Of a stretch of 64,000 nt of DNA, positions 16,552 to 36,055 are shown piece after piece. Under the pieces are notes generated by a model that worked only from the letters and a program-made list of their open reading frames with translations, had not been told where the DNA came from and searched no databases. The stretch is from contig JAKSXM010000147.1 of assembly GCA_022575985.1 (NCBI GenBank), positions 20,866,001-20,930,000 on the forward strand, in the 5' to 3' direction. How positions within the stretch are numbered: the stretch's first letter is position 1; the number at the start of each line of letters is the position of its first letter. The DNA is from Anagrus nilaparvatae. Lineage: Eukaryota; Arthropoda; Insecta; Hymenoptera; Mymaridae. The position numbers were made by a program, and so were the translations under genes.

Positions 16552-16794
16552 TGTTACGAAATTTTTGATTATAGTTTTTATTAATTTAAATATTTAAGAT
16601 GAGTTATTGACTTTATTGGGAAATTCTGTTTTAAGTTTAATTTTGATATTAAATTTCAAATATTCGTAACTTAAATCGATTTAATTATTTTGCCTACTTT
16701 AGTGCTCGTAACTAATGCAGTTACTCGCACACGGGAAGGCTTATTCTTTATTAAATTAGCAAATCTAACTAGAATATATGTAATTGTATTTATA

Positions 16795-16835
<41 letters not shown>

Positions 16836-17596
16836 GTGATAGGAAAGTATATAGGAAAGATTAGTGGTATAGAATAGAGGATAGAAATAAAGAATACTAT
16901 TTTGAATTTACTAAAATAACTCTTTGAAACAAAGTTATTTATTGATAGATACAAATGTAGAAACTTAATAAACTTATTATAAAAATAACTAATATAATAA
17001 TATAAATATACTTATTATTCATAACTAACCGTTTAAACTAGTTAGTTTCTGAATTCCAATTTAAAACGCAATGCTTTTTAATTAATAACTTTTTTGACAC
17101 TTAGTAAAAATACAGGTATATTTTAACGAAACGTGATAATGACCTGCGGTTAAAATTCCAAAGACAATTGAGAGAGTTTTGACATTTTTGGCTACTATTT
17201 ATATGATTGACTGATCGACGTGTTAATCTTAATTCGTCATGAAAGAGGGGTGCCCCTTGATTAGCAATCTTGTGGCGTCTCTTTTTGTCCTTTCTTAATA
17301 ATCAATTCTTGGACTTGTAATAAGGCCAAATTAATTAGCACCTATATTTATTTTATATCCGTTGATAAAACCATGAGACATAAAATTTGTTACTCATCTA
17401 ATGCGTTAAGCAGAGTGTTTAACGCTTTTGCGTTAATTCTATATTGAGCGCCTTTCTCTTTAGTATTTAAATCTAAAATGCGTTCAGGAAAGCTTTATCG
17501 CATTTGCGTTAACAGTGCCTTTTATCGCATTTGCGTTAACAGTGTCTGTTAACGCCTTTTCATATTTCACTGCTGTTACTTTATCTCGCTCTAACA
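16552..17596 (-). repeat. 3' LTR of the giant element
   Basis: About 1,045 bp, starting TGTTACG and ending TAACA on the + strand. It contains a (TA)n run near 16796-16834 and three copies of the CGCATTTGCG-type motif near 17418-17540. Compared with the right LTR I see one substitution (near 17489 versus 35948) and a 2-bp length difference in the (TA)n run. Confidence 0.96.
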
Positions 17597-17607
17597 CTCC
17601 TCTCCTT
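17597..17607 (-). promoter_or_regulatory. Polypurine tract for plus-strand priming
   Basis: On the sense (-) strand the bases AAGGAGAGGAG directly precede the 3' LTR, exactly where a retroelement polypurine tract is expected. Position and composition make this assignment firm. Confidence 0.85.
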
Positions 17608-18488
17608 ATGAAAAAAAACTCGAATAGAGTTTTTTGAAACTTGTTTACAAGTCAATCAAAATTAATTGCCAAAAATTTTGCCAAAAACAAAACAAAAAAA
17701 TTAAATTTAAAAAAATTTTTATTTTAATTACTCGACCGAATATCTGTATTTAAACTTTTGCATCTTTTAATTTATTATTATGAACCAAATCATAATTTTC
17801 AAAAAAATTCTCTATAGTTTGCTCATTTGATCTAGTTATTTTTTATTACAATATTTTAAATTTTTATTAAATTTTTACTACTCTTTTTAATTATTGGCTC
17901 GATACAATCTAGGTTTTTCTATTTGTTTTACTGTTTTAACGTTAATTTGTTTACAACAAAGCCTTTTATAAACTTAAACTTACATATATTTAAATTAACC
18001 GGAAGCGAGATTAAAATTGGAATACTCAAAAAATTTTTAAAAATGGTAAAATTATCCAATTTTACTCTTTCTTCCTATATTCTCCTTCCCTTAGAAAAAA
18101 AAATGCTGTAAGCATTTTTTCAAGAAAAAGAAAAAAAATAAATTATTTCTTCACCAAAAAAAAAATTTTATTTTATCTAACAGATATTCTAATTTATTTA
18201 CTTTTCTTTTTCGTTTGTACTATTATGTACTTAAAGCGAGATGACCACCACTCATGTTGTCTCACTTTTATATCTTATGTTATAATTACTTTTACTATTG
18301 TCTACCGGTTATGACATTATTGTTTATTTTTCTATAAACACGTGTACATCGATGCTACATTTTAATAAGTGTGTTTAGAGTACATTTTTTTGTTTCATCT
18401 ATTATATTGTGTTAAAACAAGTTTTTTACAATTTTTCATTTTTAAATTAGTGCATTATTTAGTCAGTGTATTATTATTAATATTCATT
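17608..18488. other. Non-coding stretch upstream of the antisense gene
   Basis: AT-rich with no supported ORF. It must hold the promoter and 5' UTR of the + strand gene that starts at 18489. An AAAGCGAGATGACCACCACT block near 18234 is the only notably less AT-rich patch. Confidence 0.5.
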
Positions 18489-20668
18489 ATGAATTATCTG
18501 GTAAGTTGAAATTATTTTAATTACATTTTATAACTTATTTTGACTTGTGATAAAAAAATTTTGTTTAAGTTAATTAGTTATTGCATTTAAAAAAAAATTG
18601 TTACAATTATTATTAAAATTTATATTTTTGTGCTTTATTTAACTGAATATTTTGAATAAAAGGGTATTGTTATTTTATATTCGGTTTCTACGAATGTACT
18701 ATTATGCGTTAACTGTACGTGTTACCGCATTTGCGTTTCATATACCGGTTAACGCAAAATTCATATAATTCTATCTTTAATTTATATAAAAAAAATTCTT
18801 TTAATTTTTGTTCTTGAATAATCCTTTGACTCAAAATAATCAGTTATTAACAAAATTAGCTTACTTTTTTTTTTTTTTTTTTTATTTTAACTTATTTGTT
18901 TGATTAAATATTAAAAAAATGCATTAATCATGTTTGTTATTACATTTGTGTTTAGTACTCATTTTGAATATTAAGCGTTAACGCTGCTTTTATCACAAAT
19001 GCGTTTCTATCTCAGTTTATCGCATTTTTACAATACTTAAAACTATATAAGGAAAATTTTAACTTAAAAAATTTTGTTTTTCATAGGGATCTGCGACTTT
19101 GTTTTCCAATGATGAATTGAAGAGGATCCCTGGTTTGGGTTTAGGTGAATTACCTAATTTTTTTATTCGGAAACAGGCTACTTTGCAATACGAGTCTTGC
19201 ATCTTGGTGAGTTACTTTTATTGCTGCTTATAAAAACTTATTTTATTATATTTAATTATAAGAACGATTTCATACTTTATTTCATAATTTTTCATTTTAG
19301 TTCGAAGATGCGATGACCCCACTTCCTGCTGATGACAATTTTACTCGTATGTCTGCTTATCTGGCTGATGTAGATCACCAAGCTTTCTGTAAGGAGAAGT
19401 TTGATGGTAATCCATCCCGTTATTGGCGAATGCCAGCTCATCCTTCCATTAGCGAAGAGTTTCTGACCCAACTGGACGAATCCTCTACTTTCACTGTTCC
19501 TGAAGGAAAAGACCCTTTGACTTTTATTCAATCATTACGTGATCAAGACTTAGTTTCTGGGCGTTTTTGGTATAACGTCCATAATCAGGACCTTCCTTAT
19601 AATGACGAGTTCCTGAATTTTGCTGCCATACATTGTTTTGCGGATACTCTTCCAGCATTTTTGAAAGTAAACCTGTTAGGTAACTGAGAATTATTTAAAA
19701 TGATATTTGTATTCACTTATTAAAACGTTATATTTTTGTTTATTTTATTTATAGGGGTAAACTCATCTGCTTGGAGTTTCCATGGCCCAAAATCCTTTTT
19801 TATGCACCGAACTGAACTTGGTCAGTTCCCTTCTGTTCACCTTTTGACTGATGGTGATTTCCTGCTTTGGACAGTGCTTCCTAAAACCTCGGTGCAAAAA
19901 CTCCTAACCGTTTGGCCCGACTTGAAGGTAAAATCTGGTCTTTGCAACGAAGAAGGATGTAAGGACGGTAACCTATGAAATTTTTGCAATTGTGACCTCG
20001 CTTGCCTCCATACACCAGGTTTCTTCCCTAGCAAGGCTTTTCTTACCACCCACCAAATTCCATCCTATGATTTTATCCAACGCCGCGGTCAGATGGTATT
20101 TGTTGGGCCGGGCGTAGGATATGCATATTACAGTCCTGGTTTTTCTGTGGTCGAGTCCCGTTGTTTGTTGCCCCTTGTTTTGGCACTTCATTCTGTCAAA
20201 AAGTTTGTATGCTACTGTCCTCTTGGTGTAGGAGGTAGGCAACCTCTAATAGTAGACTTGCCTGACTATTCTTACCAAGTAGATTTTAATGTTACTTGCG
20301 CTGAAAATCTTTGCCCTACCCCTAATTTAGGTTCCTTAGTTGCCTTAAAAAAACATAAACATGAAGTTCATAGGCCCTTTGCATGTCCAGACTGCCCTGT
20401 TAACCCTATTTCCGCCGCCCATCTCCTTACCCATCAGGAAACGGTGCATGGTAAGGGCAAAAAAATTAAGTGTGAACCATGCCAAAAGGAATATACCCGC
20501 AAAACCCTAGCTCGTCATCTTACGTGTGATCGCCATAAAGCAGCTTATCAGCAATGGCTGATTGCCAATCCTCTTCCACCTAATGATGCTCCTGAGGCCA
20601 ATGGTTCACCTGATGAAAATGATGCATCTGCGAGTACTTCTCATAAGCGATTACGCACACAAGATTAA
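18489..20668 (+). CDS. JmjC-like protein with C2H2 zinc fingers (antisense, intron-containing)
   Basis: Exons on +: 18489-18500, 19087-19206, 19301-19679 and 19755-20668. The introns have clean GTAAGT/GTGAGT/GTAACT donors and pyrimidine-TAG acceptors, and the frame stays open across them. A TGA at 19976 is avoided if 19968-20018 (GTAACC...CCAG, 51 nt, a multiple of three) is also an intron; otherwise it is a nonsense mutation. Predicted length is about 457 residues. Residues about 140-290 align by eye with a KDM5-type JmjC core: the SGRFWYN segment, then F-x2-R-T-E near 189-191 where an iron-binding H-x-E is expected, then G-x4-W-x2-LP, then GQMVFVGPGVGYAYYSPGF. Both His positions appear replaced (Arg and Tyr), so it is probably not a demethylase. 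Three C2H2 fingers follow (one C-x4-C-x13-H-x4-H, one classical C-x2-C-x12-H-x4-H, one C-x2-C-x11-H-x5-H), then a basic KRLR tail. A nuclear DNA- or chromatin-binding role is inferred. The gene runs opposite to gag-pol. Confidence 0.7.
18711..19030 (+). promoter_or_regulatory. Cluster of CGCATTTGCG-type motifs in intron 1
   Basis: Variants of TTATCGCATTTGCGTTAA: ATGCGTTAACTG at 18714, TTACCGCATTTGCGTTTC at 18722-18739, GCGTTAACGC at 18974, TTATCACAAATGCGTTT at 18989 and TTTATCGCATTTTTA at 19016. They stand out against sequence that is otherwise nearly free of CG. The same words occur in both LTRs and upstream of env. Function (enhancer, promoter, silencer or insulator binding site) is inferred. 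Confidence 0.6.
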
Positions 20669-21053: not shown

Positions 21054-21230
21054 ATGAATCGTGAATTTTTCTTAAATAATCATCCTGGAGCGAATATCAC
21101 CCAGATTACTGATCAACAGTCGTTAAATCATGTGGTAAGTTACTATTTTTCTATTTTTAATTCAAATTAAGTAAGTTAATAATAAAAAAAAATTTTATGT
21201 ATTTTATTATTGTATATATTTATTATTAAT

Positions 21231-21266
<36 letters not shown>

Positions 21267-21484
21267 TTTAGTGGAATTATGGTCGTATTAGGGCCCATTT
21301 TGATGGCGCTAATCCATTTACTTGGGTTTTGCGGCAGTTAGACTTGTATTCTGGACCAGACGACGATTGGTGGTGGGATGAGCTCTGGAACAGAGAAATT
21401 CTCTGGGAGATGGGTTTTCATCATTGGACGCCCCCTGCTCCTGAGCCTGACTATCCTGAAGATGAAATGAACCAAGTGGAATAA
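21054..21484 (+). CDS. 97-aa acidic Trp-rich protein (two exons, antisense)
   Basis: Exon 1 is 21054-21134 (27 codons, ATG to CATGTG), with donor GTAAGT at 21135. Exon 2 is 21272-21484, after a very long T tract and TTTAG. The joined frame is open, with base composition much richer in GC than the intron and flanks, which supports coding. Exon 2 has clustered Trp residues (DDDWWWDELW, then LWEMGFHHW) and an acidic, Pro-rich tail (PEPDYPEDE). No signal peptide, membrane segment or zinc site. AATAAA lies about 55 bp downstream (near 21538), and the gene converges on the - strand 229-aa ORF. I do not recognise the family. A small acidic protein-interaction factor is possible. Confidence 0.65.
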
Positions 21485-21661
21485 AGCTTTTAAAAAAAAT
21501 TTTATTTTTATTTTTGTTGCTGTTTGTGTACTATTGTAATAAAAAGAAATTTTTATTTTCTTTCTGACTAAATTTTGTTATTATTTATTTTGTTTTTCTC
21601 TAACCTTGAACTCTTATTAGTTAGTACCTTAAAATCTAGTTTACTAATAATTTTAATAGCC

Positions 21662-22470: not shown

Positions 22471-23883
22471 TTATTCTGATAAATTCATGCAGGCTTCTAG
22501 TTCTATTGGCCTATATGTTTTATTTCTACCTACTACTTTGATTATTAAAATTGACATATTAATGATGGTTAATGCAAATGTGATGACTAATACAGTTTCA
22601 AACTTATGTTCTTCTAGCGTTGTTCTCCATGATTTCTTCACTACTGGTTTCATGGTTGGTATTGTTACTTTTTGAGTTGTAGTGATAAATCTGGCCACAT
22701 CTTTAATATACAAACTTCCTGTAGGAATAATTATTTTTGGATCTTCATTTCCGTTACCCTTGTAAATATTATTACCTATAGTCATTTCACAAGATGATGG
22801 CAATTTAACCAATCCAAATCCTGAAAGTCTTTTTACTTGATTGTAACCATTGCATTTTATTTTTGCTTTTGTTTCTTCTATCATAGAATACAGTATGCCT
22901 CCTTGAACTACTTCTAATTTTGATTCGTTACTGTATCCTTCTTCTCTAGGACAGGACATCTTGTTTCTTAGGAGCAGCTCAGCCTCACAATTGACGTCTA
23001 AACTGATTATAGGTGTCATTTTCAAATATATGTTGTTTGACCTACATTCAATATTTTTATTTTTTTCTCGTTCTGATAAATAAAATGTTCTGTGACCTGA
23101 CCTATCTATTCCTATATAATCATTATTATTTAAAACTTTTGTATAAATATTATTATTATGGCCTATATTGGTGAATGATGGTAACCTATGAAGTTTGTAT
23201 AACGAATATTCGTCCTTCTGTATCGTTGGAACATTTATCATAAATGCTAAAGTCCTATTGTTCAATTTGATTACTTTGAAATCAACTATGTAGTTGCATT
23301 GATCCACTGGTAACAGTTCTTCATTAAAAACATTGTTTAAGTGTTTTTTTATACTAACCCAGTCTATGCTGTTAAAAAATTCTTTTGGGGTTTCTTGATT
23401 GGCTATGGATGTCATGGTTTTTGCCAAAAAATCAAACTCTTTAGCTATTTCGAGAGTGTCTTCTAAAGTTATATTTGCCCCTTGTAATTCTGCATGAACA
23501 TTTTTGAATTTTCTCTGTGCCTTGTTGACAAAGAATAAAGCTCTTGGGTTTTCTGTTAGTTTCATTTGTGTTTCACTTAGTAGTTTGCTGAAAACGTAAT
23601 TTTCTTCTGTCTCTATTTTTGTCATTGCTTCTCTGTATTTAGAACTCGTTAAAATAAGTTCGCTAACGTTGGCTTTCACTTGCTTTAGATATTGCAAGAA
23701 TACTTCATCAACCATTTTCCTATCTATTAACGTAAAAATAATAAGTGGATCATTAATTACTTTTACTTTACCCATTCTTTCAAATATAATTCCTGCATTA
23801 TTTCCAATTGTTAGTACTGTGGGTCTATTATTTGACCCATCTACTGCATATAGTAAAAACATAAGACCTAGTAGTAACTGCAT
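22471..23883 (-). CDS. env: Baculovirus-F/errantivirus-type envelope protein (470 aa)
   Basis: Features in order: a hydrophobic signal peptide (residues 1-15), a conserved N-terminal block with GIIFERMGKVKVI as seen at the start of F/errantivirus Env proteins, a long helical middle with coiled-coil character, a Cys-rich region (about 270-390) with KIKCNGYN and GFGLVKLPSSC motifs typical of the Baculo_F family, and a C-terminal transmembrane helix (near 435-455) with a short tail. I see no clear RXXR furin site. An acceptor (TTTCTTTAAG, ending at 23891) lies seven bases before the ATG, consistent with a spliced env mRNA. The family mediates membrane fusion. The ORF is intact. It lies about 210 bp downstream of a second, unrelated glycoprotein gene. 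Confidence 0.8.
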   Translation of the reverse strand: MQLLLGLMFLLYAVDGSNNRPTVLTIGNNAGIIFERMGKVKVINDPLIIFTLIDRKMVDEVFLQYLKQVKANVSELILTSSKYREAMTKIETEENYVFSKLLSETQMKLTENPRALFFVNKAQRKFKNVHAELQGANITLEDTLEIAKEFDFLAKTMTSIANQETPKEFFNSIDWVSIKKHLNNVFNEELLPVDQCNYIVDFKVIKLNNRTLAFMINVPTIQKDEYSLYKLHRLPSFTNIGHNNNIYTKVLNNNDYIGIDRSGHRTFYLSEREKNKNIECRSNNIYLKMTPIISLDVNCEAELLLRNKMSCPREEGYSNESKLEVVQGGILYSMIEETKAKIKCNGYNQVKRLSGFGLVKLPSSCEMTIGNNIYKGNGNEDPKIIIPTGSLYIKDVARFITTTQKVTIPTMKPVVKKSWRTTLEEHKFETVLVITFALTIINMSILIIKVVGRNKTYRPIELEACMNLSE

Positions 23884-24096: not shown

Positions 24097-26106
24097 TCAA
24101 TTTCTCCTCTCTCTTTCGATATCTTGATTATTTTCTTGCCCTCCTATAGTTAAACCTAACAGTGGATACATCGGTGTATAATTACTGGCTTCTACTTGTA
24201 ACGTAGGTGCCGTTGGTTCTGCTTCTGTAAGATGCTCATTCACTTCAGTAGGTACTTGATCTCTTTCATCCCGAATTCCTTGTCCTAAATGAATTAACAA
24301 TTGTGTGACTGAATCCCAGATTGCTCCTATCAAATAAAGTGATATCCCATATATGTTATATAATGTAATAGTGTGGATTATAGTATCTGCACAAAACTTT
24401 ATTAGCCTGGCTACCATTATTAATCCTAATATACCTGCTGAAGCCGTCCCAAAGGACATAAATCTTCCCCAAAAATGCTCCCAAGTAGTTTGAATGATTT
24501 TTTTGATGGATTCTGCATCAAAAAGAAAAGATGGGTTAATTTTATCACCTGTGATATTATGTCCCATCATTCCTCTTGCCACACTGTTTAAAACCGCCGA
24601 TTTTTCTAATGGAAATCGCATATATTCTTTTAAACTTTTCAACTGTTCTGGAGTGTAAATCCCTGCTTCAGCTAAGTTTTTGGGATCTACATACTTCCAA
24701 GTTTCCTGTGTTCCTGGCTGTAATACTTGTGGTTTCTTGCCCTCTGAAATTCCAGGAGAGAATTTGTACCACATTTCTCCTAAAAAGAACATACTTGGAA
24801 CTAGACTACTGCATTCTACTGATGTACCAGTTTTTGTTAGAATGTGTGTCCTTGGTGCCATAAAATATTCTTCTCCATCTTTATATACCGGAAGCTCTTG
24901 ATAACACGATGTAGTTTTTCTATATTTTACCGGGACGCTGATGCACTTAATAATATTCACACTTTCTCCTGCGACTAATCCTATAAAACCAGGGCCACCT
25001 GTCACTTGGTAAGCGAAATTTGCTGGATCCAGTAAGGCCAAATTTAAAGCATTTGCTATTATTTTTCTCTCCAAGTTGCATTTCTGTAAAGTAACGTCAT
25101 GATATAAATTTTTTAATTGCATTTTATAATGTTTTTCTACGTATAAAAATTTAGAATTCATATAAGCCATTAAATCCAAATTTTCCGGTGAAGTAGATTC
25201 TTGAACTTCTAAATATTCTGGATTTTCCATCTCTACAATAAAAATCCTTGGGTCATCTGTTCTTATGAATTCGTTTGAACAAGCTGAAAATTTTCCTTTA
25301 GCAGTAAAAGCAAACATTATTGATGATTCTAAGGCATATACGGGATTTTCAATTTTCTGTGGGTCGATAATTTTATCCACTGGACCTGCATATAATTTTG
25401 AATACTTTTCTGTGCACCTGTCCCTTGGAGCTGCATTCCAAAAAGCAAATTCCCCATATAAATCTATACATTGTTCTGAATTTAATTTACATTTTACACC
25501 AGTATTTAGTATAACATTATTGTTGTCAATGTCCACTGTGGCTTGATAATCTTCTATAGTTACCTTTATCCAACCATCTACAATAACTTCATTCCAAGTT
25601 CCATAAGGGTCTGAATAATATCCATTTATGCAGCTAGCACCTTTGTCCCCTCTATGACCTGCTAGTTGGACTGGCATAGATCTTGAACTATTTGGATTCA
25701 GATTTGGTACTAAAATTTGATTTCTGAAATGAAAACTTAACGTATTATGCATTGTATCACATTGCATTCTAGTTACATGCTCAATGTAAGATACTTTTCC
25801 ACCCTCTACACCAGTAATTCTCGTTCTTTTGTACCAGGCAGCATCACAATAAGCAATTTCTCTAGTAACCTCTACTTTGCAAATTCTTACTTGTACTTTT
25901 GCATAATCATTAAGTTGAACTAGCGCTACTTTAGTTTTTTCTATCTGCACTTTGGGATTCATAGCTACATGACATTCTCCTATGTCTATTAATGAGAATG
26001 TTGAAATGTTGTTGTATTGTTGAGCACAATCAAAGGCTATTATTGATTTTTCAGCTCCCCATATACTTGAAATTAAAGTTGCTACCAAAAATACGATCAA
26101 ACTCAT
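24097..26106 (-). CDS. Second envelope: mononega/chuvirus-G-like glycoprotein (669 aa)
   Basis: Begins with a signal peptide (residues 1-17) followed by the FDC-x6-NISTFSLIDIGEC block that I associate with chuvirus-like glycoproteins and their copies in arthropod retroelements. Many Cys residues and several N-x-S/T sites lie in the ectodomain. Near residues 560-620 are two hydrophobic stretches (ASAGILGLIMVARLI and ISLYLIGAIW), the membrane anchor region, and the tail is acidic and Pro/Thr-rich. The ATG follows directly after a strong acceptor (TTTTGTTTTCAG). It is 310 bp downstream of pol, the normal env position. The class (class III-like fusion protein) is inferred from the N-terminal signature alone. 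It is not similar to the F-like envelope next to it. The ORF is intact. Confidence 0.65.
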   Translation of the reverse strand: MSLIVFLVATLISSIWGAEKSIIAFDCAQQYNNISTFSLIDIGECHVAMNPKVQIEKTKVALVQLNDYAKVQVRICKVEVTREIAYCDAAWYKRTRITGVEGGKVSYIEHVTRMQCDTMHNTLSFHFRNQILVPNLNPNSSRSMPVQLAGHRGDKGASCINGYYSDPYGTWNEVIVDGWIKVTIEDYQATVDIDNNNVILNTGVKCKLNSEQCIDLYGEFAFWNAAPRDRCTEKYSKLYAGPVDKIIDPQKIENPVYALESSIMFAFTAKGKFSACSNEFIRTDDPRIFIVEMENPEYLEVQESTSPENLDLMAYMNSKFLYVEKHYKMQLKNLYHDVTLQKCNLERKIIANALNLALLDPANFAYQVTGGPGFIGLVAGESVNIIKCISVPVKYRKTTSCYQELPVYKDGEEYFMAPRTHILTKTGTSVECSSLVPSMFFLGEMWYKFSPGISEGKKPQVLQPGTQETWKYVDPKNLAEAGIYTPEQLKSLKEYMRFPLEKSAVLNSVARGMMGHNITGDKINPSFLFDAESIKKIIQTTWEHFWGRFMSFGTASAGILGLIMVARLIKFCADTIIHTITLYNIYGISLYLIGAIWDSVTQLLIHLGQGIRDERDQVPTEVNEHLTEAEPTAPTLQVEASNYTPMYPLLGLTIGGQENNQDIERERRN

Positions 26107-26149
26107 CTGAAAACAAAATAAACTTATTTTAAAATTATGCGTTTTTATA

Positions 26150-26356
26150 CCTTATAACGCAAAAGCGTGAATTGTCTAAGTTAGCGCATTTTGTATAGTA
26201 CTTTCATTTTTACTTTGCGTTAAAAGACTACTTTAACGCAAATGCGATAACTGCTTGAGTTAACGCTTTTGGTATCTTACTTTTAATTTCTTATTTTGTG
26301 TTAACGACTAGACTTAACGCAATTGCGCTAACTGTCTTAATATCGCATTTCATTAA
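26150..26356 (-). promoter_or_regulatory. CGCATTTGCG-type motif cluster between pol and env
   Basis: On + the gap reads TAACGCAAAAGCG (26154), GTTAGCGCATTTTG (26180), TTAACGCAAATGCGATAA (26233-26250), TTAACGCTTTTG (26260), TTAACGCAATTGCGCTAA (26314-26331) and TATCGCATTTCATTAA (26341). The 26233 copy is an exact 18-bp complement of the motif repeated in the LTRs. It lies upstream of the G-like env, in what would be intron sequence of its spliced mRNA. Confidence 0.65.
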
Positions 26357-26416: not shown

Positions 26417-29400
26417 TTATCCTTCTAGTGCAAACTTAGGTTTTATATACGAATGCTGTAACCTATTTCCATTTACTACGCTAAATTTATTTTTACCAGT
26501 TTTTATTTTTACATTTCCATTTTTATAATTATTGATTACAGCATATGGCCCTTTATACTGATCCTTTAACTTACGTATTTTACCTCCTTGCAATAAGAAA
26601 ACACTTTCACCAATCTTGAAAATATGCTCTAACAAGTTTTGATCATAGCGCTCTTTCGATTTTTCTTTGGCTTTTATTACATTTTCTTTTGCAATTTTTT
26701 GTACCTTGTTCAAAGTTGTTATTAGATTAGTTAAATATGCATCTACAGTGTTTTCATTTTCGATTGGTTCCTTGATTTCAGAAGGTGTTCTTGCTAAACG
26801 TCCAAACATTAATTCAAAAGGAGTCGCTTTTGTGGATTCGTGCACCATGGAATTGTAGGAAAAAGTTGCCAATTCTACATAATCATCCCAGTCATCCTCA
26901 TTGTTATTTACAAATACTTTTAAGAACTGACCAAGGGTATGATGCATCCGTTCCACAGGATTTGACCTTGGTGTATATGCACACGTTCTTATTTGCTTGA
27001 TTTTGAACTGCTTAGCTACTGCTGCGAATAGTTTTGACATAAAGTTTGCACCCCTGTCTGAAACCAAGGTCTGCGGAGCCCCAAAAACGGTTATATATCT
27101 CTTCACAAATGCATCGGCTACCGTACTAGCTTGTGAATCAGGCAATGGTACTGCAACACTGTATTTAATCAATGTATCCTGCATAGTAAAAATAACGGTA
27201 TTTAATTTTTTTGTTGTAGTTAAAGGTCCTACTATATCGATACTCAATTTCTGCCCTGCTTGTGTAGGAGTGTCGGTAATCTGCATTTTATTTTTAACTT
27301 TTCGCCTTACCAATTTCTTTAATTGACAGGTTAAACACTGCCTGATATAGTCTTGTATTTCATCCCTCATATTTTCCCAGCTGTATTTGGTTCTTAGACG
27401 TTTGTAAGTTTTCAAAAATGCACGATGACCAGAGACTAAGGTGTCATGAGCGTCCTTAATTAATGCCTCTCTTTCTGATGGATGTGGCACTCTTACCTCT
27501 CCTAAACAAACTATGATTTTTGTATCTTCATTGCCTTGTAGAGTTTTCTTCAATTTTCTGAGAACTTCAAGCCATTCTATAAAATTAATTCTGTTCGACT
27601 TAGCTATGCTGAATGACTTGATTCCATATTCCTTTAACAGAGTTTTTAAATTATTAAACAATTTTGACATATTTTCACTTACCTCTGTCATAGAAATAGG
27701 ATCACTTTCTCTAATAGGTAGTAAAATATGATACCTACTACCTATTTTAATAACTTTTGGTTCACCAATTATTAAATTTAAATTTATCGGTATTTTATTT
27801 AAGGCATCAAGCTCTAAAGCGCCAGTACAAACAGGTTTACCGGAAGATGTTACGAAGTAGGCCCAGTTGTCCTTTCGCATGAAAATTTTGTCCCTATTAT
27901 AGACAAAATTATCCGCTTTCACCAACTCCCTAAAATTATTTAATTCCGTAGTATTTAAGTCAGCATTTGCAAATGGCAAATCTTCCAATACTTCGGGATT
28001 ATTTAATTCTTCTCCTACTACTTCAGAATTGAAATCGAAAGTGTTATTTAAAATTTCACTGATACCTGCTTCTCCTTCCTCTCTGTTTTCACTTTTGCTT
28101 TCAGCTTGGTTCTCTCTTTCTTTTACTTGTTTTTCTCTTTTCTTTCTTCTACTAGGCATTAATGCTTCGATTGCCTCTTGATATTTCAAACTTTGTGCCC
28201 CTCTTCTAGTCTGCATTCTAGTTCTAAGTGTTAGTAAACGCTTTTTCTTAGGTTGCCGTATTTCTTCTTCCTGAAAAGTATAAATACGAGATACTCTTAC
28301 CGGTACAGCTTCGAAATACAACACTGGATTTCTTGAAAGTGCATCCGCGTTAACATTACTTGCTCCGTCTTTAAAAATGAACTCGTATTCGTAGTCTGCT
28401 ATTCTTAGTCTCCAACGTGCTACTCGTGAGTTAGGATCTTTCTTTGACTGCATAAAACTTAAAGCTCTATGATCACTTACTAAATAAAATTTCTTACCAT
28501 ATAAATAAGGTCTAAAATATTCCACACCCCATACGACAGCGAGTGCTTCTTGGTCTGTTACTGAGTATTTTTGCTCCGCTTCATTTAAAACTCTTGAAGC
28601 ACAAGCTACTGGCAAATCTTTACCTATTTCACCTTGAGAAAGTACTGCACCTAAAGCCACTCCGCTTGCATCCGTTGTAAGGACAAATTCGCGGCTAAAA
28701 TCCGGATATTGCAGAATTGGAGCTTCACATAATTTTCTTTTCAATATTTCAAATGCTTCTTGAGCCTTATCACTCCAAATGAACTCTTGATCCTTTTTAA
28801 GCAATGATGTAAGTGGTTTAGCAATTTTAGCGAACTGTGGTATATGTCTCCTGTAATAAGATGTTATTCCTAAAAATTGTTTAACATTTTTAGGCGTAGC
28901 TGGTACTGGAAACTTTTCAACTGCTTCAAGCTTCTTTGGATTTGGTTTTACTCCATCCTTGGAAATGACATGACCTAAATAGGTTACTTCAGTTTGTAAA
29001 AAGAAACATTTTTCTGGCTGCAATTTTAGATTGGCTTCCCTTAAGCGTCTCATTACTTCTTTTATTAATTCTAACAGCTTTTCTAAAGTCTTGGCATGTA
29101 TTAGGAAATCATCAATATATGCTATTACTCCTTCCAAATCTCTAAATAGCATTTGGATCAGCCGCATAAAACTACTTGGACTATTCTTTGCACCGAATGG
29201 TACCCTAGTGTACTCATATAGTCCATACATGGTGGCAAATGCAGTTTTATGCCTGTCCTTTTTGTGGATTAGGATTTGATGAAAACCAGAACTCAAATCG
29301 AGCGAACAGAAGTACTTTGAGCCATTTATGCTGTCCAGAAGGTCCAATAAATTTGGTAAAGGGTACTGGTCAGAGATAGTTTTATCATTTAGTCGCCTCA

Positions 29401-31042
29401 AATCCAAAACTAAACGATGTTTTACTATCCCCTGGCTGTTTGGTTTCTTCGGTACTAACATTATTGGATGGCTATACGATGAATGTGATGGTGTAATTAT
29501 ACCTTCTGCCAAAAGCTTATTTAATTGTTCTTTTAACTCTTCTGCTAAAAAAGGTGAAATTCTATACATTCTAGAAGTAATTGGTACCTCATCAACAGTA
29601 AAAATTCTATGTTGAAAAACGTTTGTAAACGAAAGAGGTTCCCCTGGTATATGAAATACATCTGCATTTTCTTCCAGAATTTTCTCAACAATTTTCTTAT
29701 CCTCATCATTTAAATGGCCTAAATTTGATAATTCCTTCACCTTATCGACTCTTTGTTCAGGCGTTAGCTCCATATACAGGATCCTTTCATTATTATTTAA
29801 TTCTTTTCTAACTTCATTTATTAAATCTTTGATCTGTTTTAAAAATTGCATATTATTTGATAAATTATCCATTTCAATAATAGTATTTAAATTATCAAAT
29901 GGCTCAATAAATTCATATAGCTTACAATGGTTGACCTCATTTATTATATTGTTAATAATTGCCATAAAATCATTTTTATATTTTACCTTTTTAGTAAACA
30001 GTGATTCGTTTACTAACCCTTCTAGTATATTGAGATGCTCTATACATAATTCCTCTTCTTTCTCAGTTTCTCTTTCATTTATACTTTCACTATCGCTTCC
30101 TTTTTTACTTTCTGTCCTTCTTGTTCTCAAACTGTTTTGTGACTTGCCTGAACGGTCTGCCTGTTGCCAGTTTTCATGCCTAGAACTTTTTTTATTATAA
30201 AACTTTAACTGTATTTCATGAAATTTTGTCTTATTGCTTACAAGACTTTTACTTTCAACTGTATTTACGTTATTTACTACATTATTTTTATTCAAAACAG
30301 TTTTACTATTATTTACTTGATACATAGTAAAATAAATTATCCACCACATTACAAAATTTAATAATTTTACTATTATTACAAAATTAATTACAATAAAATT
30401 CACACACTCTAAAATTTCTGCAGTATTGTTGTACACATCTGTAGTTTTTTTATCGACCACTACAAGATCCCTGTTTGAAAAACTTTTCAACAGAGGCTTT
30501 TTATTTATAACTTCATCTGCAGTTTTCTCTTCTACTGCAGGAGCCCCTTCTGAAAAATTTTTCATCAAAGGCCTTTTATTTATAATCTCATCTGCAGTTT
30601 TCTCCACTACTGCAGGAGCTCTACCCGAAAATTCTTCCACCAAAGGCTTTTCATTTATAAACTCATCTGCAGTTTTCTCTACTACAGGAGCCTTTTTGGA
30701 AAAATTTTCTAAACTGGTTTTTCTATTTAATGCCACTTCTGCAGTTTTCTCCGCTACTGCAGGATCCATGTTTGAAAATTCCTCCAACAAAGGCCTTTTA
30801 TTTAAAAACTCATCTGCAGTTTTCTCTACTACAGGAGCCTTATTGGAAAAATTTTCTAACCTGGTTTTACTACTTAATGCCACTTCTGCAGTTTTCTCCG
30901 CTACTGCAGGATCCATGTTTGAAAATTCCTCCAACAAAGGCCTTTTATTTATAAACTCATCTGCAGTTTTCTCTACTACAGGAGCCTTATTGGAAAAATT
31001 TTCTTTCATGGGTTCATTATTTTGCAATTTGCTTGCTTTACT
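26417..31042 (-). CDS. pol: Pol: RT, RNase H and integrase, with an N-terminal repeat and membrane segment
   Basis: The open frame is in a different phase from pro and overlaps its stop by a few bases, so it is probably expressed by frameshift; a non-AUG position at 31027 gives 1,536 residues. Residues 1-190 are eight tandem 24-25-residue units (consensus FSN-x2-P-V-EKTADE). Residues about 203-233 are a strongly hydrophobic, Trp-containing stretch. Then come a charged linker, RT with LDLSSGFHQI and the catalytic YIDD near residue 635, RNase H with TDASG near 784, and integrase with the HHCC zinc finger near 1192-1225 and the catalytic Asp (SIDIVGP, ~1262), Asp (SDRGANF, ~1323) and Glu (NPVERMH, ~1357). 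All catalytic motifs are present. Ty3/gypsy type. The repeats and hydrophobic segment are not usual parts of Pol. Confidence 0.95.
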   Translation of the reverse strand, partial: SKASKLQNNEPMKENFSNKAPVVEKTADEFINKRPLLEEFSNMDPAVAEKTAEVALSSKTRLENFSNKAPVVEKTADEFLNKRPLLEEFSNMDPAVAEKTAEVALNRKTSLENFSKKAPVVEKTADEFINEKPLVEEFSGRAPAVVEKTADEIINKRPLMKNFSEGAPAVEEKTADEVINKKPLLKSFSNRDLVVVDKKTTDVYNNTAEILECVNFIVINFVIIVKLLNFVMWWIIYFTMYQVNNSKTVLNKNNVVNNVNTVESKSLVSNKTKFHEIQLKFYNKKSSRHENWQQADRSGKSQNSLRTRRTESKKGSDSESINERETEKEEELCIEHLNILEGLVNESLFTKKVKYKNDFMAIINNIINEVNHCKLYEFIEPFDNLNTIIEMDNLSNNMQFLKQIKDLINEVRKELNNNERILYMELTPEQRVDKVKELSNLGHLNDEDKKIVEKILEENADVFHIPGEPLSFTNVFQHRIFTVDEVPITSRMYRISPFLAEELKEQLNKLLAEGIITPSHSSYSHPIMLVPKKPNSQGIVKHRLVLDLRRLNDKTISDQYPLPNLLDLLDSINGSKYFCSLDLSSGFHQILIHKKDRHKTAFATMYGLYEYTRVPFGAKNSPSSFMRLIQMLFRDLEGVIAYIDDFLIHAKTLEKLLELIKEVMRRLREANLKLQPEKCFFLQTEVTYLGHVISKDGVKPNPKKLEAVEKFPVPATPKNVKQFLGITSYYRRHIPQFAKIAKPLTSLLKKDQEFIWSDKAQEAFEILKRKLCEAPILQYPDFSREFVLTTDASGVALGAVLSQGEIGKDLPVACASRVLNEAEQKYSVTDQEALAVVWGVEYFRPYLYGKKFYLVSDHRALSFMQSKKDPNSRVARWRLRIADYEYEFIFKDGASNVNADALSRNPVLYFEAVPVRVSRIYTFQEEEIRQPKKKRLLTLRTRMQTRRGAQSLKYQEAIEALMPSRRKKREKQVKERENQAESKSENREEGEAGISEILNNTFDFNSEVVGEELNNPEVLEDLPFANADLNTTELNNFRELVKADNFVYNRDKIFMRKDNWAYFVTSSGKPVCTGALELDALNKIPINLNLIIGEPKVIKIGSRYHILLPIRESDPISMTEVSENMSKLFNNLKTLLKEYGIKSFSIAKSNRINFIEWLEVLRKLKKTLQGNEDTKIIVCLGEVRVPHPSEREALIKDAHDTLVSGHRAFLKTYKRLRTKYSWENMRDEIQDYIRQCLTCQLKKLVRRKVKNKMQITDTPTQAGQKLSIDIVGPLTTTKKLNTVIFTMQDTLIKYSVAVPLPDSQASTVADAFVKRYITVFGAPQTLVSDRGANFMSKLFAAVAKQFKIKQIRTCAYTPRSNPVERMHHTLGQFLKVFVNNNEDDWDDYVELATFSYNSMVHESTKATPFELMFGRLARTPSEIKEPIENENTVDAYLTNLITTLNKVQKIAKENVIKAKEKSKERYDQNLLEHIFKIGESVFLLQGGKIRKLKDQYKGPYAVINNYKNGNVKIKTGKNKFSVVNGNRLQHSYIKPKFALEG
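30480..31020 (-). repeat. Tandem ~73-bp coding repeats in the Pol N-terminus
   Basis: Eight units of 24-25 codons encode the FSN-x2-P-V-EKTADE peptide. The first four form a duplicated two-unit block that is almost identical at the DNA level (30690-30780 versus 30820-30930), so it expanded recently. All units keep the frame. Confidence 0.9.
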
Positions 31043-31733
31043 TTAATAATTTATTTGCACCTTTTAATGCTACTATAATTTTTTTCTTTAAACTATTGTC
31101 CCTACTTATTACTTGCCTAGCTGTTTTAACTTTTTTGCTATTCTTTTTATTTTTAATTTTTACTTTTAGAGTAGGAGATTTTTTTCTTTTAATCTGTTCT
31201 CCCACTCTTACTACCTGAGTTATACAATCGTTCTTGTCTTCTCTGGCCTTTATCACCACCTCTTCTGATGTAAATTTTAATACCTCGTTGTTTGACTGGA
31301 AGGGGTATTTTTGTCCTTGAAGCACTAAACAGCGTTCATCAAAATATAGTCTCGCTTTGTTGCCTTCTAAAAACTTATTTCCTATCAGCCCTGTTTCTTG
31401 AATTGGAAAATTATTTTCTACAACATGAAATTTTGTTAAAATTCCGCAAATTTTTATTTCTATACTTCCCAATGACTTGACTGCAGGGTCTGAAATTCCA
31501 ATTAGCTTAACTATTTCATTTTTACAAATTTTTACCTTATCTGGCACTGCTTTTTGCTTCAATAGATTTGCGCTGGCTCCTGAATCCAAGAGGTAGTCAA
31601 TTTCTTTACCTAGGCTGGCAGAAGATAAGACGACTGTTGGCGCGTTGCTATTTCGACTTAGATGGATTGTGTGTTCGACGTACTGGGAGCCTCCCGATTT
31701 GCGCCCATCGGTTGGCTGCTGCCGTTTCCCTAA
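31038..31733 (-). CDS. pro: Retroviral-type aspartic protease
   Basis: An open frame of 231 codons in the -1 phase relative to the zinc-knuckle frame of gag. The active-site motif LLDSGASANLL lies about 50 residues in (near 31590), and the second conserved turn GLIGNKFL is near 31410, matching a single-domain retropepsin. The C-terminus is Lys-rich. No Met is needed if it is made by frameshifting from gag; the first ATG-like position is not a credible start because it lies at the active site. It cleaves the Gag-Pol polyprotein. The frame overlaps pol by a few bases. Confidence 0.85.
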   Translation of the reverse strand, partial: LGKRQQPTDGRKSGGSQYVEHTIHLSRNSNAPTVVLSSASLGKEIDYLLDSGASANLLKQKAVPDKVKICKNEIVKLIGISDPAVKSLGSIEIKICGILTKFHVVENNFPIQETGLIGNKFLEGNKARLYFDERCLVLQGQKYPFQSNNEVLKFTSEEVVIKAREDKNDCITQVVRVGEQIKRKKSPTLKVKIKNKKNSKKVKTARQVISRDNSLKKKIIVALKGANKLLK

Positions 31734-31945
31734 TTATTTTCCTCTGCCCTTCTTGTATCGGCAGTCCTTGATCTGCAAAAACGAGCTGTATGTCCTTTTC
31801 TCTTACAGTTATGGCACTCCATTTGCTGACGCTTAACTATCCACTCCGGTTTGTTCGGATTACCAGGATTAGTCCAACAATTTTCCTTGACATGACCATT
31901 CTTAGAACAATGGCTGCACTTTAATTGCCCTCTATTTTCTTTTTA
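31730..31945 (-). pseudogene. gag: Gag C-terminal zinc knuckles behind an in-frame stop
   Basis: Downstream of the TAA at 31943-31945 the same frame continues for about 70 codons with two CCHC knuckles, CSHCSKNGHVKENC and CHNCKRKGHTARFC, ending at a TAG (31730-31732). These are nucleocapsid modules that bind genomic RNA. Either the TAA is a lesion of this copy or it is a programmed readthrough stop; one copy cannot decide. Confidence 0.8.
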
Positions 31946-33111
31946 GTTTGCTTGTTGTTTTCTTCCCTCTACGAATTTTGGCAACTCAGGGCAGAGAAGC
32001 GTCGTGTGGTCTTGTCTAAGGCATAAAAAACAATAATTATTATTTGGAGTGGTATGTGTACTTACAACGTTTATTTGCTCAGTTTTCGACGTTTTTGTTT
32101 CTTCGTATGAGCACGATTCCCTCTCTACCACTATTGCTTCGTTGAGAGTATCTGCAAAGGTAGCATAGGGCATTAACCTTGTTCTTATCTCCGTTCTCAT
32201 GCCTTTCAAAAAGAACCTAAGCATGTCTCTGTCTAACATGGCGTCTTCCAATGGCCTCCCCTCCAATACCGCCGCCTTTTTTATTTTTCTTCCCAGCTCT
32301 TTTATTTTGTTGGCAAATAATACGACTTTCTCTTTCTCCCCTTGTCGTACCTTCGCTAAATCCCCTCCTAGCTCGTGCGACGTTTTGGGATTTCCAAAGG
32401 AGAATTCTACAAAGTCAATGACCTCTTGTATGGAGCGGAAATTGTGTCCAATAGCTGCCTTCGCTGCTTCTCCTTTTAGCCTTAAAAGAATTAACGGTGC
32501 TACCTCGCTTTCGTTTTCTGGGGGTATCATACCTTTCGCCCTGCCACACCCGATTACGAAATTTTCCACCTCTTCTTGCGAACCGGTGAATTCTAGAATC
32601 GTGTTGATTGTGTCTTTTATCGAGAATGGCCTTATCTTTGATAATGATGAATTTTGTGAATAAGATGCCCCCGTAAATTCATTTGCCTGATACGTATTTC
32701 TCCTAAAACAATTACCCTCGTGATTAACACCACACCTTCTGCATACTTCCGGTCTAATTTGCTCAGCCGTGTGATACATTGTAGAATACGGTGTGTAATG
32801 GTTAGCTGCTATTGGTGCTGCCCTATAATTGGTACTGCTGGCCAAACCTGTAAAATTATTGTTTATTGTTTGCTGACCCAATTCCTGGATGTGCGCTGTG
32901 ACTCCCATAGTTGTTGGAGGTATTTCAGTTGCGTCTGGCTGTAAAATAAATTTTTTTGTACTTTTTATACTTGGATTTATTGGAGTCACTAAACTCTCTC
33001 TGCCCTCTAGTAAACATAAAGTATATTCTGCAGCTAATTCTTCTAGGACTAACTCTGGGCCTAAACTACTGTTAAATAATTCAATTAGTATTCTTAAGGT
33101 CTCAGCATCCC
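31943..33111 (-). pseudogene. gag: Gag, downstream part after the MITE
   Basis: Continues the frame of the upstream gag piece on the other side of the MITE. It holds a CRRCGVNHEGNC cluster, a capsid-like helical domain (EKEKVVLFANKIKELG, then LRFFLKGMRTEIRTRLMP) and a CCHC knuckle CFLCLRQDHTTLLC near the end. The part from about 32989 down is an uninterrupted frame of 348 residues. Gag forms the particle shell. It is separated from its own N-terminus by 1.2 kb of MITE, so no normal Gag can be made from this copy unless the MITE is spliced or excised. Confidence 0.85.
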
Positions 33112-33115
33112 TTAA

Positions 33116-34329
33116 GGGTCGTTTTACCTAAATATGTCGATATTTTAGCTGATTTTCAAGGTAGGATTGTGAAATAACGGATAGAGATATTTGAATCAAA
33201 TTTTTTTTATTGTTTAGAAATATATTAATAATTAAAAAAAAAAATTTTTTTTTGTTTTTTGTGACGTCATTTTTGCGTAAGAGAGGTGTATTTGCGTCTC
33301 TGAAAAAAAATAATCCAAAGTTATGTACAGGATATCTTGACTTAGGATAATCTAAAATATACACAAAAAAAATTGGTAAGACTTAGAACCCGTAATTTCG
33401 GGATGACGTCGAGTTTTTTCAAAAAAATTAATTAGGAACAAAATGGCGGCTACACAAAGTTAAAATGAAAAAAAAAGCCTATAATTTTTGGGCAAAAGCA
33501 GCTGTAAAAATTTTTTGAGATCATAAAAAAAAAAAAACTCGACGTCATCCCGAAATTAGTGCATTTATTAAGTTGCTTAGTAAGTTTAAAGTAAATCGGT
33601 GCAGAAGTTATCGCGCAATCGTGTACATGGTTTTCAAAGACGTTGTTTCGAGTAAAACGACTTTGAAGTTTTGGAATAATTTTTTCGGTACTTTTAGTTA
33701 TTAAATTATTAATTTTTTTTTTTTTATTACGTAAAGGAACTTACAAAAAATATATTAGACCAAAAAAATTAAAATCGGTTGAGTAGTTTTAGAGAAATCT
33801 TAATTAGAAGGTGTAAAAACATAGTTTTCTAAATAAGAATAAAAATTTTTTTTTCGTAGAAATTTAGCAAAACATTTTTTTTTTGTATATTTAAGTATAC
33901 TTATAAGTTATTAGTGATTTTGAGGCCATAAAGTTATCCTTCCGGTTTTCATACTGAACCTGTAGCTGATTTTACCTCTACTGCTGGGCCGATTTGCTAT
34001 TTTTTACCATTTTGGCACGGCTAAATTTGGCGTCATAAACAATCGCGAATATTAGCTAAATTTGCTCATAATTTCTATCAGTGACCGGTTCCGACATAAT
34101 TTCTAACTATTTAACAATAGTTAGAAGATATGTAAGATAATAATAGAGCCATACCGTTAAATTTTATCAAAAGTACGTTTGACGGTGCGCGCAAAACAGG
34201 CCAAAAAATATACTTAGGGGGGAGGATTTAAAAATAAATTTTTTTTACATACTCTTGAGACATATATAAAGTAATTAACAGAAAAAAAAAAAATTCGATT
34301 ATCAAAAAAAAGTTTAGGTAAAACGACCC
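33116..34329. mobile_element. 1.2-kb TTAA-flanked MITE inserted in gag
   Basis: The 17-bp terminal inverted repeats GGGTCGTTTTACCTAAA bound 1,214 bp without a credible gene. TTAA is duplicated outside both ends (33112-33115, 34330-34333). Removing the insert and one TTAA keeps the gag frame, which proves the insertion. Piggybac-type mobilisation is inferred from the target site. Its interior contains two inverted GACGTCGAG-type blocks near 33402 and 33540. Confidence 0.95.
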
Positions 34330-34333
34330 TTAA

Positions 34334-34909
34334 TGCTTTGTCCAGTACGTCCTTGTTGTTATGTGGTAGATATGTCTGCAGCTGTGTAGCAGCTGGTAAT
34401 AACTCTGTTTCCACATCTGTGTCCAATAACCTGTAAGCTAAATACCTTAATAAATCTTTTACAGATGGTCTTGGCTTGGATTCTGGGTAACTGCAATGAC
34501 GCCTTAAAACGTCGTAAATCCTGCTGTCAAAATAAACTTTTAGTGAGGAATCTTGGCTACTTGTACCTGTTATTATATCAATAATTTCTGCAGGATGTAT
34601 GTTACTTGCTCTTAATTCCTGAATCATACTTGCCAATGTGGCGTCTTTTATTACTTCATCTAATACCTCTTTATCGAATCGGTTTTCTAATGCTTCAATT
34701 AATTCTTGCCTTTGCTCAATTGTCGATGTAGGTTCCTTGTTTTTAGTTTCATTATAATGTTTTTTGTACCATTCTAAAACTTCCTCTATTGTTGTGTCTA
34801 CACTTATTTCAATAAAGTCTTTCGCATATTTACATAGTATATTATATGCTTTCTTTGCATTAACGTCTTTTTCTACCAATTTCTCGGCTAATACTCTTAA
34901 AAGACTCAT
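34334..34909 (-). pseudogene. gag: Gag, N-terminal part, cut by the MITE
   Basis: ATG at 34909 begins about 190 residues of a helical, charged protein (for example KKAYNILCKYAKDFIE and IEQRQELIEALENRF) that runs into the MITE at 34330; the frame then reads about 40 spurious residues of MITE sequence before a stop. It lies about 80 bp downstream of the primer-binding site, the expected gag start. I see no known domain in this part; it would be the matrix-like end of Gag. Confidence 0.85.
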
Positions 34910-34990
34910 TTTGTTGAGAAGAAAATAAGAAAGATAGAAAGAAATAGAAAATTTAAATTGTAGAATAATTTGCTTTTTTAATAAAAAATT

Positions 34991-35008
34991 CCCTAAGACG
35001 AGCCCCCA
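34991..35008 (-). promoter_or_regulatory. Primer-binding site, tRNA-Pro-like
   Basis: On the sense strand the bases TGGGGGCTCGTCTTAGGG begin four bases after the 5' LTR ends. The first 12 match the known tRNA-Pro primer-binding site of murine-leukaemia-type viruses. Position and sequence both fit minus-strand priming. Confidence 0.85.
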
Positions 35009-35012
35009 CTTT

Positions 35013-35255
35013 TGTTACGAAATTTTTGATTATAGTTTTTATTAATTTAAATATTTAAGATGAGTTATTGACTTTATTGGGAAATTCTGTTTTAAGTTTA
35101 ATTTTGATATTAAATTTCAAATATTCGTAACTTAAATCGATTTAATTATTTTGCCTACTTTAGTGCTCGTAACTAATGCAGTTACTCGCACACGGGAAGG
35201 CTTATTCTTTATTAAATTAGCAAATCTAACTAGAATATATGTAATTGTATTTATA

Positions 35256-35294
<39 letters not shown>

Positions 35295-36055
35295 GTGATA
35301 GGAAAGTATATAGGAAAGATTAGTGGTATAGAATAGAGGATAGAAATAAAGAATACTATTTTGAATTTACTAAAATAACTCTTTGAAACAAAGTTATTTA
35401 TTGATAGATACAAATGTAGAAACTTAATAAACTTATTATAAAAATAACTAATATAATAATATAAATATACTTATTATTCATAACTAACCGTTTAAACTAG
35501 TTAGTTTCTGAATTCCAATTTAAAACGCAATGCTTTTTAATTAATAACTTTTTTGACACTTAGTAAAAATACAGGTATATTTTAACGAAACGTGATAATG
35601 ACCTGCGGTTAAAATTCCAAAGACAATTGAGAGAGTTTTGACATTTTTGGCTACTATTTATATGATTGACTGATCGACGTGTTAATCTTAATTCGTCATG
35701 AAAGAGGGGTGCCCCTTGATTAGCAATCTTGTGGCGTCTCTTTTTGTCCTTTCTTAATAATCAATTCTTGGACTTGTAATAAGGCCAAATTAATTAGCAC
35801 CTATATTTATTTTATATCCGTTGATAAAACCATGAGACATAAAATTTGTTACTCATCTAATGCGTTAAGCAGAGTGTTTAACGCTTTTGCGTTAATTCTA
35901 TATTGAGCGCCTTTCTCTTTAGTATTTAAATCTAAAATGCGTTCAGGCAAGCTTTATCGCATTTGCGTTAACAGTGCCTTTTATCGCATTTGCGTTAACA
36001 GTGTCTGTTAACGCCTTTTCATATTTCACTGCTGTTACTTTATCTCGCTCTAACA
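35013..36055 (-). repeat. 5' LTR of the giant element
   Basis: About 1,043 bp and nearly identical to 16552-17596. It carries TTATCGCATTTGCGTTAA twice (35954-35971, 35981-35998). It should hold the promoter for the - strand genomic RNA. Confidence 0.96.

Follow-up and report, generated by a model that had tools for sequence, protein, structure and literature searches.

An errantivirus-like Ty3/gypsy provirus of Anagrus nilaparvatae with two envelope genes of separate origin and a putative antisense JmjC-zinc-finger regulator

What kind of retroelement carries, besides gag, pro and pol, five further genes distributed over both strands, and what might the genes on its opposite strand do? These questions are raised by a locus of the hymenopteran insect Anagrus nilaparvatae (Mymaridae). 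The window, i.e., the whole 64-kb stretch that was analyzed, corresponds to C342:20866001-20930000 of an assembly of 488.7 Mb in 393 contigs, and its positions 16552-36055 are occupied by a single 19.5-kb Ty3/gypsy provirus with the minus strand as its sense strand. We give an even chance to the view that this is an endogenous errantivirus-like Ty3/gypsy element with two envelope proteins (Envs) and an antisense regulatory module, formed by the genes gA and gB, which acts through the element's own palindromic sites. A broader proposal is put forward tentatively, namely that animal endogenous retroviruses can encode an antisense, sequence-specific JmjC-zinc-finger chromatin regulator that is likely an active demethylase in sister families but a pseudo-demethylase here, co-evolves with palindromic sites, is traded as a cassette, counters host silencing and accompanies two unrelated Envs.

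That the locus is one long terminal repeat (LTR) element had already been claimed in an initial annotation made from the letters alone, and the LTRs, the ACTG target-site duplication, the primer-binding site, the purine tract and pol on which this claim was based were all found again (Table 1). The LTRs, described there as nearly identical, agree at 1042 of 1045 aligned positions, with one substitution and, within a TA run, one gap of 2 nt. LTRs of the form TG..CA with a 4-bp target-site duplication were present in all three copies that were read at both ends (ACTG, ATTC and TAAT). The primer-binding site, which we take to be a match to tRNA-Pro, has its leading 8 nt in 3/3 other copies read at that place. 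The genes run in the order gag, pro, pol, and pol itself in the order reverse transcriptase (RT), RNase H, integrase, with an RT of the Ty3 type; its nearest solved structure is that of Ty3 (E=1.2e-106). The five additional genes of the initial annotation, i.e., env1, env2 and open reading frame (ORF) 3 on the sense strand and two intron-containing genes, gA and gB, on the plus strand, are likewise all present.

Other copies show how these genes belong together. A DNA search of the assembly with env2 gave at least 37 places, of which 8, including the window, are 97-100% identical and 29 are 66-76% identical. In all seven other near-identical copies, env2, ORF3, gB and gA agree with the window in order and strand, except that gA is incomplete in the stretch fetched for L011 and that L015 has a long gap within gB. 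A 3' LTR lies where expected in five of the seven (10 kb fetched). From the 2.7 kb fetched at the 5' end of each, the 5' LTR is whole in C196a (with one deletion) and in C243, represented by its outer edge alone in two copies, truncated in C333, and not found in the remaining two. C196a has its own target-site duplication, ATTC, and an LTR pair that is about 99% identical; C243 has TAAT and LTRs identical at 1027/1027 positions. Thus, the search for further copies that the initial annotation had proposed did find the same gene order, twice with LTRs and target-site duplications of their own. Moreover, env1 lies upstream of env2 in 9/9 other copies read there (5 near, 4 diverged), and the diverged families follow the same gene plan. 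As this plan is common to near copies and diverged families, the genes are inherited as a set and do not represent the remains of nested insertions, which bears out the earlier claim that the block moved as a unit rather than as a pile of insertions. That annotation had also regarded copies without the accessory genes as an argument against such a unit, and this argument applies in part. Two places found in the gA search without an env2 match nearby, C62 (L040) and C47 (L041), indeed lack env1 and env2, but both keep pol, followed by the antisense genes. C47 retains the whole of gB without ORF3, while C62 retains gB exon 1 and just the end of ORF3; both are env-less derivatives of the same lineage in which gA is retained.

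The two envelope genes have separate origins. Env1 is aligned over its residues 7-633 to positions 5-633 of the 653 in PF24664, i.e., to nearly the whole model, and its comparison with the PDB gave one chance nanobody match and nothing else. Env2, encoded downstream of pol, matches the Baculo_F family with E=5.8e-10 and 38.8 bits (cut-off 24.1), and its best PDB match is a weak one (E 0.018) to a 'fusion protein.' Between families, the ratio of nonsynonymous to synonymous divergence (dN/dS) of env2 is 0.08-0.23 in the six comparisons with a computable dS; two further comparisons gave none. Individual copies have decayed: stops or frame breaks occur in env1 of L032, L035 and L036 and in gA of L009, L013 and L015, env2 has frame breaks in L013 and L014, and the leading 71 residues of Env1 are unmatched in L034.

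The larger of the antisense genes, gA, is predicted to encode a protein that combines a JmjC core with three C2H2 zinc fingers. The JmjC assignment for the window copy is marginal (PF02373, cut-off 24; a 104-aa piece reaches 24.4 bits and a 229-aa piece 22.8). Among unbroken exon-4 members from other copies, 6/6 match JmjC at E<=1, the best at 4.5e-06, and L014 scores 25.3 bits. All 12 Cys/His finger ligands are invariant among six gA members, and by sequence, fingers 2-3 correspond to zinc-finger chains of known structure (best E=3.7e-11). In the window lineage, the first iron-binding His is replaced by Arg (with a His one residue before) and the last by Tyr, while Glu is retained (6/6). Since two of the three iron ligands are thus replaced, the JmjC of this lineage probably lacks demethylase activity, and it may work through recruitment instead. 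The second antisense gene, gB, encodes a small acidic, Trp-rich protein, and a Pfam comparison of its exon 2 matched no family.

Elsewhere in the genome, JmjC frames are numerous. At least 109 matches to PF02373 exceeded the cut-off, some of them being two pieces of one gene, with 150 of 201 candidates scored; the five best resemble ordinary host genes by their scores, and a control set of 14 genomes had no match to this family. Of the 37 env2 matches, 20 (one element counted twice) have an opposite-strand gA or JmjC match within 9 kb downstream. Of the 109, we chose 11 further JmjC places, and all 11 retain the iron ligands HxE...H. One of these, C35, has on one strand a JmjC frame together with a piece resembling gB (68%, 38 aa) and, on the other, frames resembling env2 (25%) and env1 (50%); the gene plan is therefore old. 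The expansion of JmjC frames, e.g., at L046-L048, L051 and L052, comprises gA-like exons of ~295 aa and a longer class of 457-590 aa as read (some cut by the stretch), with several C-terminal C2H2 fingers. In the 5 kb beside the longer-class JmjC of C218, none of the window's gB, ORF3, env2, env1 and pol was matched, and this frame may belong to another kind of element.

Comparisons between copies indicate that gA is under purifying selection. Type 1 and type 2 gA differ by a dS of 1.1-1.3 and a dN of 0.16-0.18, i.e., a dN/dS of 0.13-0.15 (four comparisons: L010, L012, L013, L015). The splice sites are conserved as well, with AG acceptors of exon 3 at 10/10 loci, GT donors of exon 2 at 8/8 and AG acceptors of exon 2 at 7/8. 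Chance ORFs were rejected on both grounds. In gB, a second intron (GT..AG) is present in six older loci (L015, L016, L018, L020, L021, L023) and precisely missing from the window and the six young copies L009-L014. The simplest reading suggests that spliced antisense RNA was reverse transcribed and then recombined back into the element, and the precise absence of the intron is therefore an indirect pointer to transcription and splicing of gB. Besides, L012 and L013 agree with the window at 98-100% everywhere but over 18.8-20.7 kb, where identity falls to 69-82%; this divergent part comprises the last portion of intron 1 plus exons 2-4 of gA. The reverse is seen in L017, with an env2 that is 70% identical to that of the window and 77-78% to those of L020 and L021, and a gA exon 4 that is 95% identical to that of the window. 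As judged from these patterns, gA moves from copy to copy as a cassette, likely through template switching during reverse transcription.

The module is accompanied by a clustered short motif. GCGTTAA occurs 23 times in the window where 7.2 are expected, a number reached by 0/100 shuffles, and 21 of the 23 lie inside the element (15 counting one LTR). Each LTR holds six, gA intron 1 and the pol-env1 spacer hold four apiece, and pol has one. Palindromes of the form TTAACGC-N4-GCGTTAA with at most two mismatches number nine (three per LTR and three in the spacer; six counting one LTR), and spacings of 2, 3, 5, 6, 8 and 9 gave none in the window at the same stringency. With three mismatches allowed, the count rises to 11 (2.98 expected), of which 10 belong to the element. 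Diverged families use another motif. From LTR to gA, L018, L020 and L021 have no GCGTTAA and 9, 8 and 8 GCGTTTA, respectively, all in the 5' region of gA. The pol-env1 spacers of L036, L038 and L039 contain 13, 6 and 17 GCGTTTA and no GCGTTAA, whereas those of L031, L032, L033 and L035 contain 4 GCGTTAA and no GCGTTTA. Hence, the motif is switched between families in gA intron 1 as well as in the pol-env1 spacer, the two places common to both sets. GCGTTTA-type palindromes number 8 in L020 (0.59 expected) and 7 in L039 (0.21 expected), partly in arrays with a 27-bp step. The contact positions of the fingers differ between the motif sets too, mainly in finger 2 (A-H-T/I vs S-N-A). An 18-bp site comprises two 9-bp half-sites, each suited to three C2H2 fingers, so that a gA dimer would fit. 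Altogether, the pattern is similar to that of sites co-evolving with a DNA-binding protein of the element itself, for which plant VANC is an example.

From these sequence data we infer the transcription of gA, its DNA binding, its effect on chromatin and the direction of that effect. In the proposed mechanism, gA would be transcribed from the opposite strand and spliced, and its fingers would bind GCGTTAA-type sites, often 18-bp palindromes, within intron 1 of gA itself, in the spacer that precedes env1 and, in the family of the window, also in U3. The JmjC part would then alter chromatin at the bound sites, by which the promoters of the element could escape or tune silencing. Owing to the antisense orientation, the introns of gA and gB would not be removed from the genomic RNA by splicing.

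Several observations weigh against this reading. In the window, gA is broken; as a correction to the initial annotation, exon 4 of this plus-strand gene has a premature stop. An intron or a recoded codon was rejected as an explanation of this stop, as the codon is not a stop in 11 other places read. In the window lineage (6/6), two of the three HxD/E...H iron ligands are replaced, as described above. The pattern on which gA exon 1 is predicted recurs in 4/9 copies examined, and the AG acceptor before exon 2 is missing at one of the eight loci mentioned. Pfam C2H2 models match weakly (zf-C2H2 in 2/6 members, best E=0.014), and AlphaFold single-sequence models were uninformative, with predicted local distance difference test (pLDDT) values of 41 for ORF3 and 39 for gA exon 4b. 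Among copies, dN/dS of gA exceeds 1 in L009 (1.73, 7 changes) and L011 (2.67, 10 changes), and that of ORF3 reaches 2.38 against L014 (11 changes); these are very young copies, among which the ratio is uninformative. In 16 of the 37 env2 matches these searches found no nearby gA or JmjC match, though at least one of the 16 (C1:13.09M, L018) encodes gA by protein comparison, and one of the 37 has JmjC on the same strand. No gA match was found in L016, L019, L022 and L023, and no gB exon-2 match in L017 and L019.

The sites themselves add further points to the same side. Intron 1 of the window copy holds half-sites and just one weak palindrome (18722, 3 mismatches). The motif count is weak in L023 (C342c; 4 GCGTTTA), the region from LTR to gA is mixed in C39 (5 GCGTTAA and 1 GCGTTTA), and the pol-env1 spacers of L037 and C39 hold neither motif. 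Single palindromes with a spacing other than 4 occur in L010, L017, L018, L023, L036, L037 and L039, and one of the GCGTTTA type lies in the window. The LTR parts of L018, L020 and L021 contain no site cluster, and a further cluster lies between gB and ORF3 in these copies; clustering in the LTR is thus restricted to the family of the window and some of its relatives and does not extend over the lineage as a whole. As the GCGTTTA families lack it, control via the LTR is not general. Types 1 and 2 of gA, both of which go with GCGTTAA, also differ at some contact positions of the fingers, and the binder could be gB, ORF3 or a host factor.

If gA does act at these sites, it might do so as a repressor or latency factor that dampens the element, so that copies limit themselves or exclude rivals. 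The degenerate iron site would suit this role, as would the occurrence of sites in gA's own intron in both family sets, which autoregulation predicts, and an exchange of cassettes as though under diversifying pressure. We hold this to be unlikely, though deserving of serious attention, since the retention of gA by env-less derivatives and the existence of ligand-intact JmjC relatives in the same architecture fit activation or anti-silencing better. Doubtful, and in our judgment rather improbable, is the explanation that a host transcription factor or gB binds the sites while gA acts elsewhere, e.g., on host chromatin generally. By our own reading, the contact residues of the fingers map uncleanly onto the base change under a simple code, and the LTR cluster is not common to the diverged families, both of which would agree with another binder. 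A fixed host factor would not, however, drive a joint change of the motif between families in both gA intron 1 and the pol-env1 spacer, and against gB it counts that its exon 2 matches no Pfam family.

It has also to be considered whether the plus-strand genes are nested or passenger host genes, or a transposon that landed in one gypsy copy. Their opposite strand and introns might suggest so, together with the two places that carry gA without env genes. These genes occupy the same position in 7/7 near copies and in diverged families whose env2 is 60-70% identical, though, the block is flanked by just short A/T-rich matches and no long terminal repeats, and the env-less C62 and C47 still have gypsy pol beside the antisense genes. 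A nested insertion is therefore scarcely credible and was rejected. The reading that we retain, at even odds, is that of an inherited antisense module in which gA would let the element escape or tune silencing through its own sites.

Animal retroelements are silenced by PIWI-interacting RNA- (piRNA-) and histone H3 lysine 9- (H3K9-) based chromatin marks, and element-encoded, sequence-specific measures against silencing are, to our knowledge, known above all from plants. Should gA work as proposed, counter-silencing by an element could be tested directly in animals on a defined protein, a defined short site and natural families in which both have changed. The stable pairing of two unrelated Envs, together with env-less derivatives that keep the antisense genes, bears on the switching of retroelements between infectious and intracellular life. 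A spliced antisense regulatory gene near the 3' LTR of a retrovirus is known in HBZ of human T-cell leukemia virus type 1 (HTLV-1), which shares this position with gA but encodes an unrelated type of protein. In Epe1 of fission yeast, a JmjC protein that is not known to carry C2H2 fingers, Tyr replaces an iron-binding His, so that the iron site is atypical there too; Epe1 differs in being a host gene outside any element. Epe1 opposes heterochromatin (PMC7613290), as is proposed for gA.

With insect errantiviruses and other envelope-carrying Ty3/gypsy elements (Metaviridae), the provirus has in common gag-pro-pol with a Ty3-like pol, TG..CA LTRs, a 4-bp target-site duplication and a Baculo_F-type env after pol; the chuvirus-type second env, ORF3, the antisense JmjC-finger gene, gB and the clustered palindromic sites are additional here. 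A Chuviridae glycoprotein was captured by the BEL/Pao element 'Anakin' (Dezordi 2020, as cited in PMC10084718), which likewise has a Jingchuvirales-type glycoprotein as the env of an LTR retroelement, but here the host element is Ty3/gypsy. According to PMC10084718, there was no clear evidence of such a capture by Gypsy elements. Type III fusion glycoproteins are nevertheless mentioned in mosquito gypsy elements (PMC13172572), and a gypsy element with this type of env is therefore not wholly new. In plant VANDAL transposons, short motifs are clustered in non-coding parts, including the introns of VANC, and change along with the protein (PMC5735166). The anti-silencing VANC proteins thus share with gA the encoding by the element, the family-specific clustered motifs and their presence in introns of the own gene. 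They differ in belonging to a plant DNA transposon, in that binding has been shown for VANC and is proposed for gA, and in not being described, in the portions of PMC5735166 considered, as JmjC or zinc-finger proteins. Antisense ORFs occur in the plant LTR retrotransposons Grande, RIRE2 and Retand, without clear similarity to known proteins (PMC7264820); they too are conserved within families and lie between pol and the 3' LTR, whereas here JmjC and C2H2 domains, introns, clustered sites and two env genes are found. Rotifer elements carry extra ORF3s (PMC5408684). In these sources, each ingredient singly has a precedent, i.e., chuvirus env capture, a type III env in gypsy, antisense ORFs and extra ORF3s, which qualifies the claim, made in the initial annotation, that no described insect Ty3/gypsy element was known with this gene set. 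In the openly licensed literature, no report of JmjC in an env-bearing LTR element was found. Scans of IMG/VR with gA, env1 and pol gave no relatives.

Table 1. Positions in the window of the parts of the provirus and of the sites and repeats belonging to it.
Feature	Position	Strand	Basis or remark
gA exon 1, predicted start, 4 codons	18489-18500	+	prediction; pattern
gA exon 2	19087-19206	+	splice sites compared
gA exon 3	19301-19679	+	splice sites compared
gA exon 4: JmjC core (PF02373) and three C2H2 fingers	19755-20668	+	premature stop ~19976 here
gB exon 1	21054-21134	+ (antisense)	
gB exon 2	21272-21484	+ (antisense)	second intron of older copies precisely absent
Four GCGTTAA half-sites, gA intron 1	18706-18984	.	
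pol-env1 spacer, three palindromic sites (1-2 mismatches)	26154-26331	.	
env1, 669 aa, Jingchuvirales/Monjiviricetes-type fusion glycoprotein	24097-26106	-	PF24664 E=1.3e-189
env2, 470 aa, baculovirus-F/errantivirus-type Env	22471-23883	-	PF12259 Baculo_F
ORF3, 249 aa	21662-22411	-	kept across families; without convincing family match
5' LTR	35013-36055	-	LTR pair comparison
3' LTR	16552-17596	-	6 GCGTTAA sites near U3 end, 17403-17555
Target-site duplication ACTG, left copy	16548-16551	.	ends compared
Target-site duplication ACTG, right copy	36056-36059	.	ends compared
Primer-binding site TGGGGGCTCGTC	34997-35008	-	4 nt inward of 5' LTR
Polypurine tract AAGGAGAGGAG	17597-17607	-	adjoins 3' LTR
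gag	31943 (approximate end)-34909	-	split by insert 33112-34333
Later ~1.2-kb insert in gag	33112-34333	.	perfect 21-nt terminal inverted repeats, TTAA ends
Aspartic protease	31038-31589	-	PF00077 19.4 bits, slightly below cut-off 20.7
pol: RT, RNase H, integrase	26417-31027	-	domain matches

The window copy is defective, with an interrupted gag besides the stop in gA. As a further correction to the initial annotation, gag is split by the TTAA-ended insert; in C333, the sole other copy in which this place was read, the insert is missing. At its N end, pol contains ~7 tandem repeats of 75 nt (25 aa) at window positions 30459-31004.

As for its surroundings, the provirus sits within the right arm of another element with inverted repeats of ~0.9 kb (14701-16541 and 36056-36459). 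Positions 14701-15107 and 36053-36459 of this host element are 97% complementary, and a 511-nt part is 100% complementary. Immediately outside the provirus, a satellite-like array of 155-bp units extends over 36824-38445. Further retroelement remains at 38719-40204 and 44749-47031 contain, by eye, gag-like frames with zinc knuckle-like motifs and minus-strand RT/endonuclease frames like those of long interspersed nuclear elements (LINEs).

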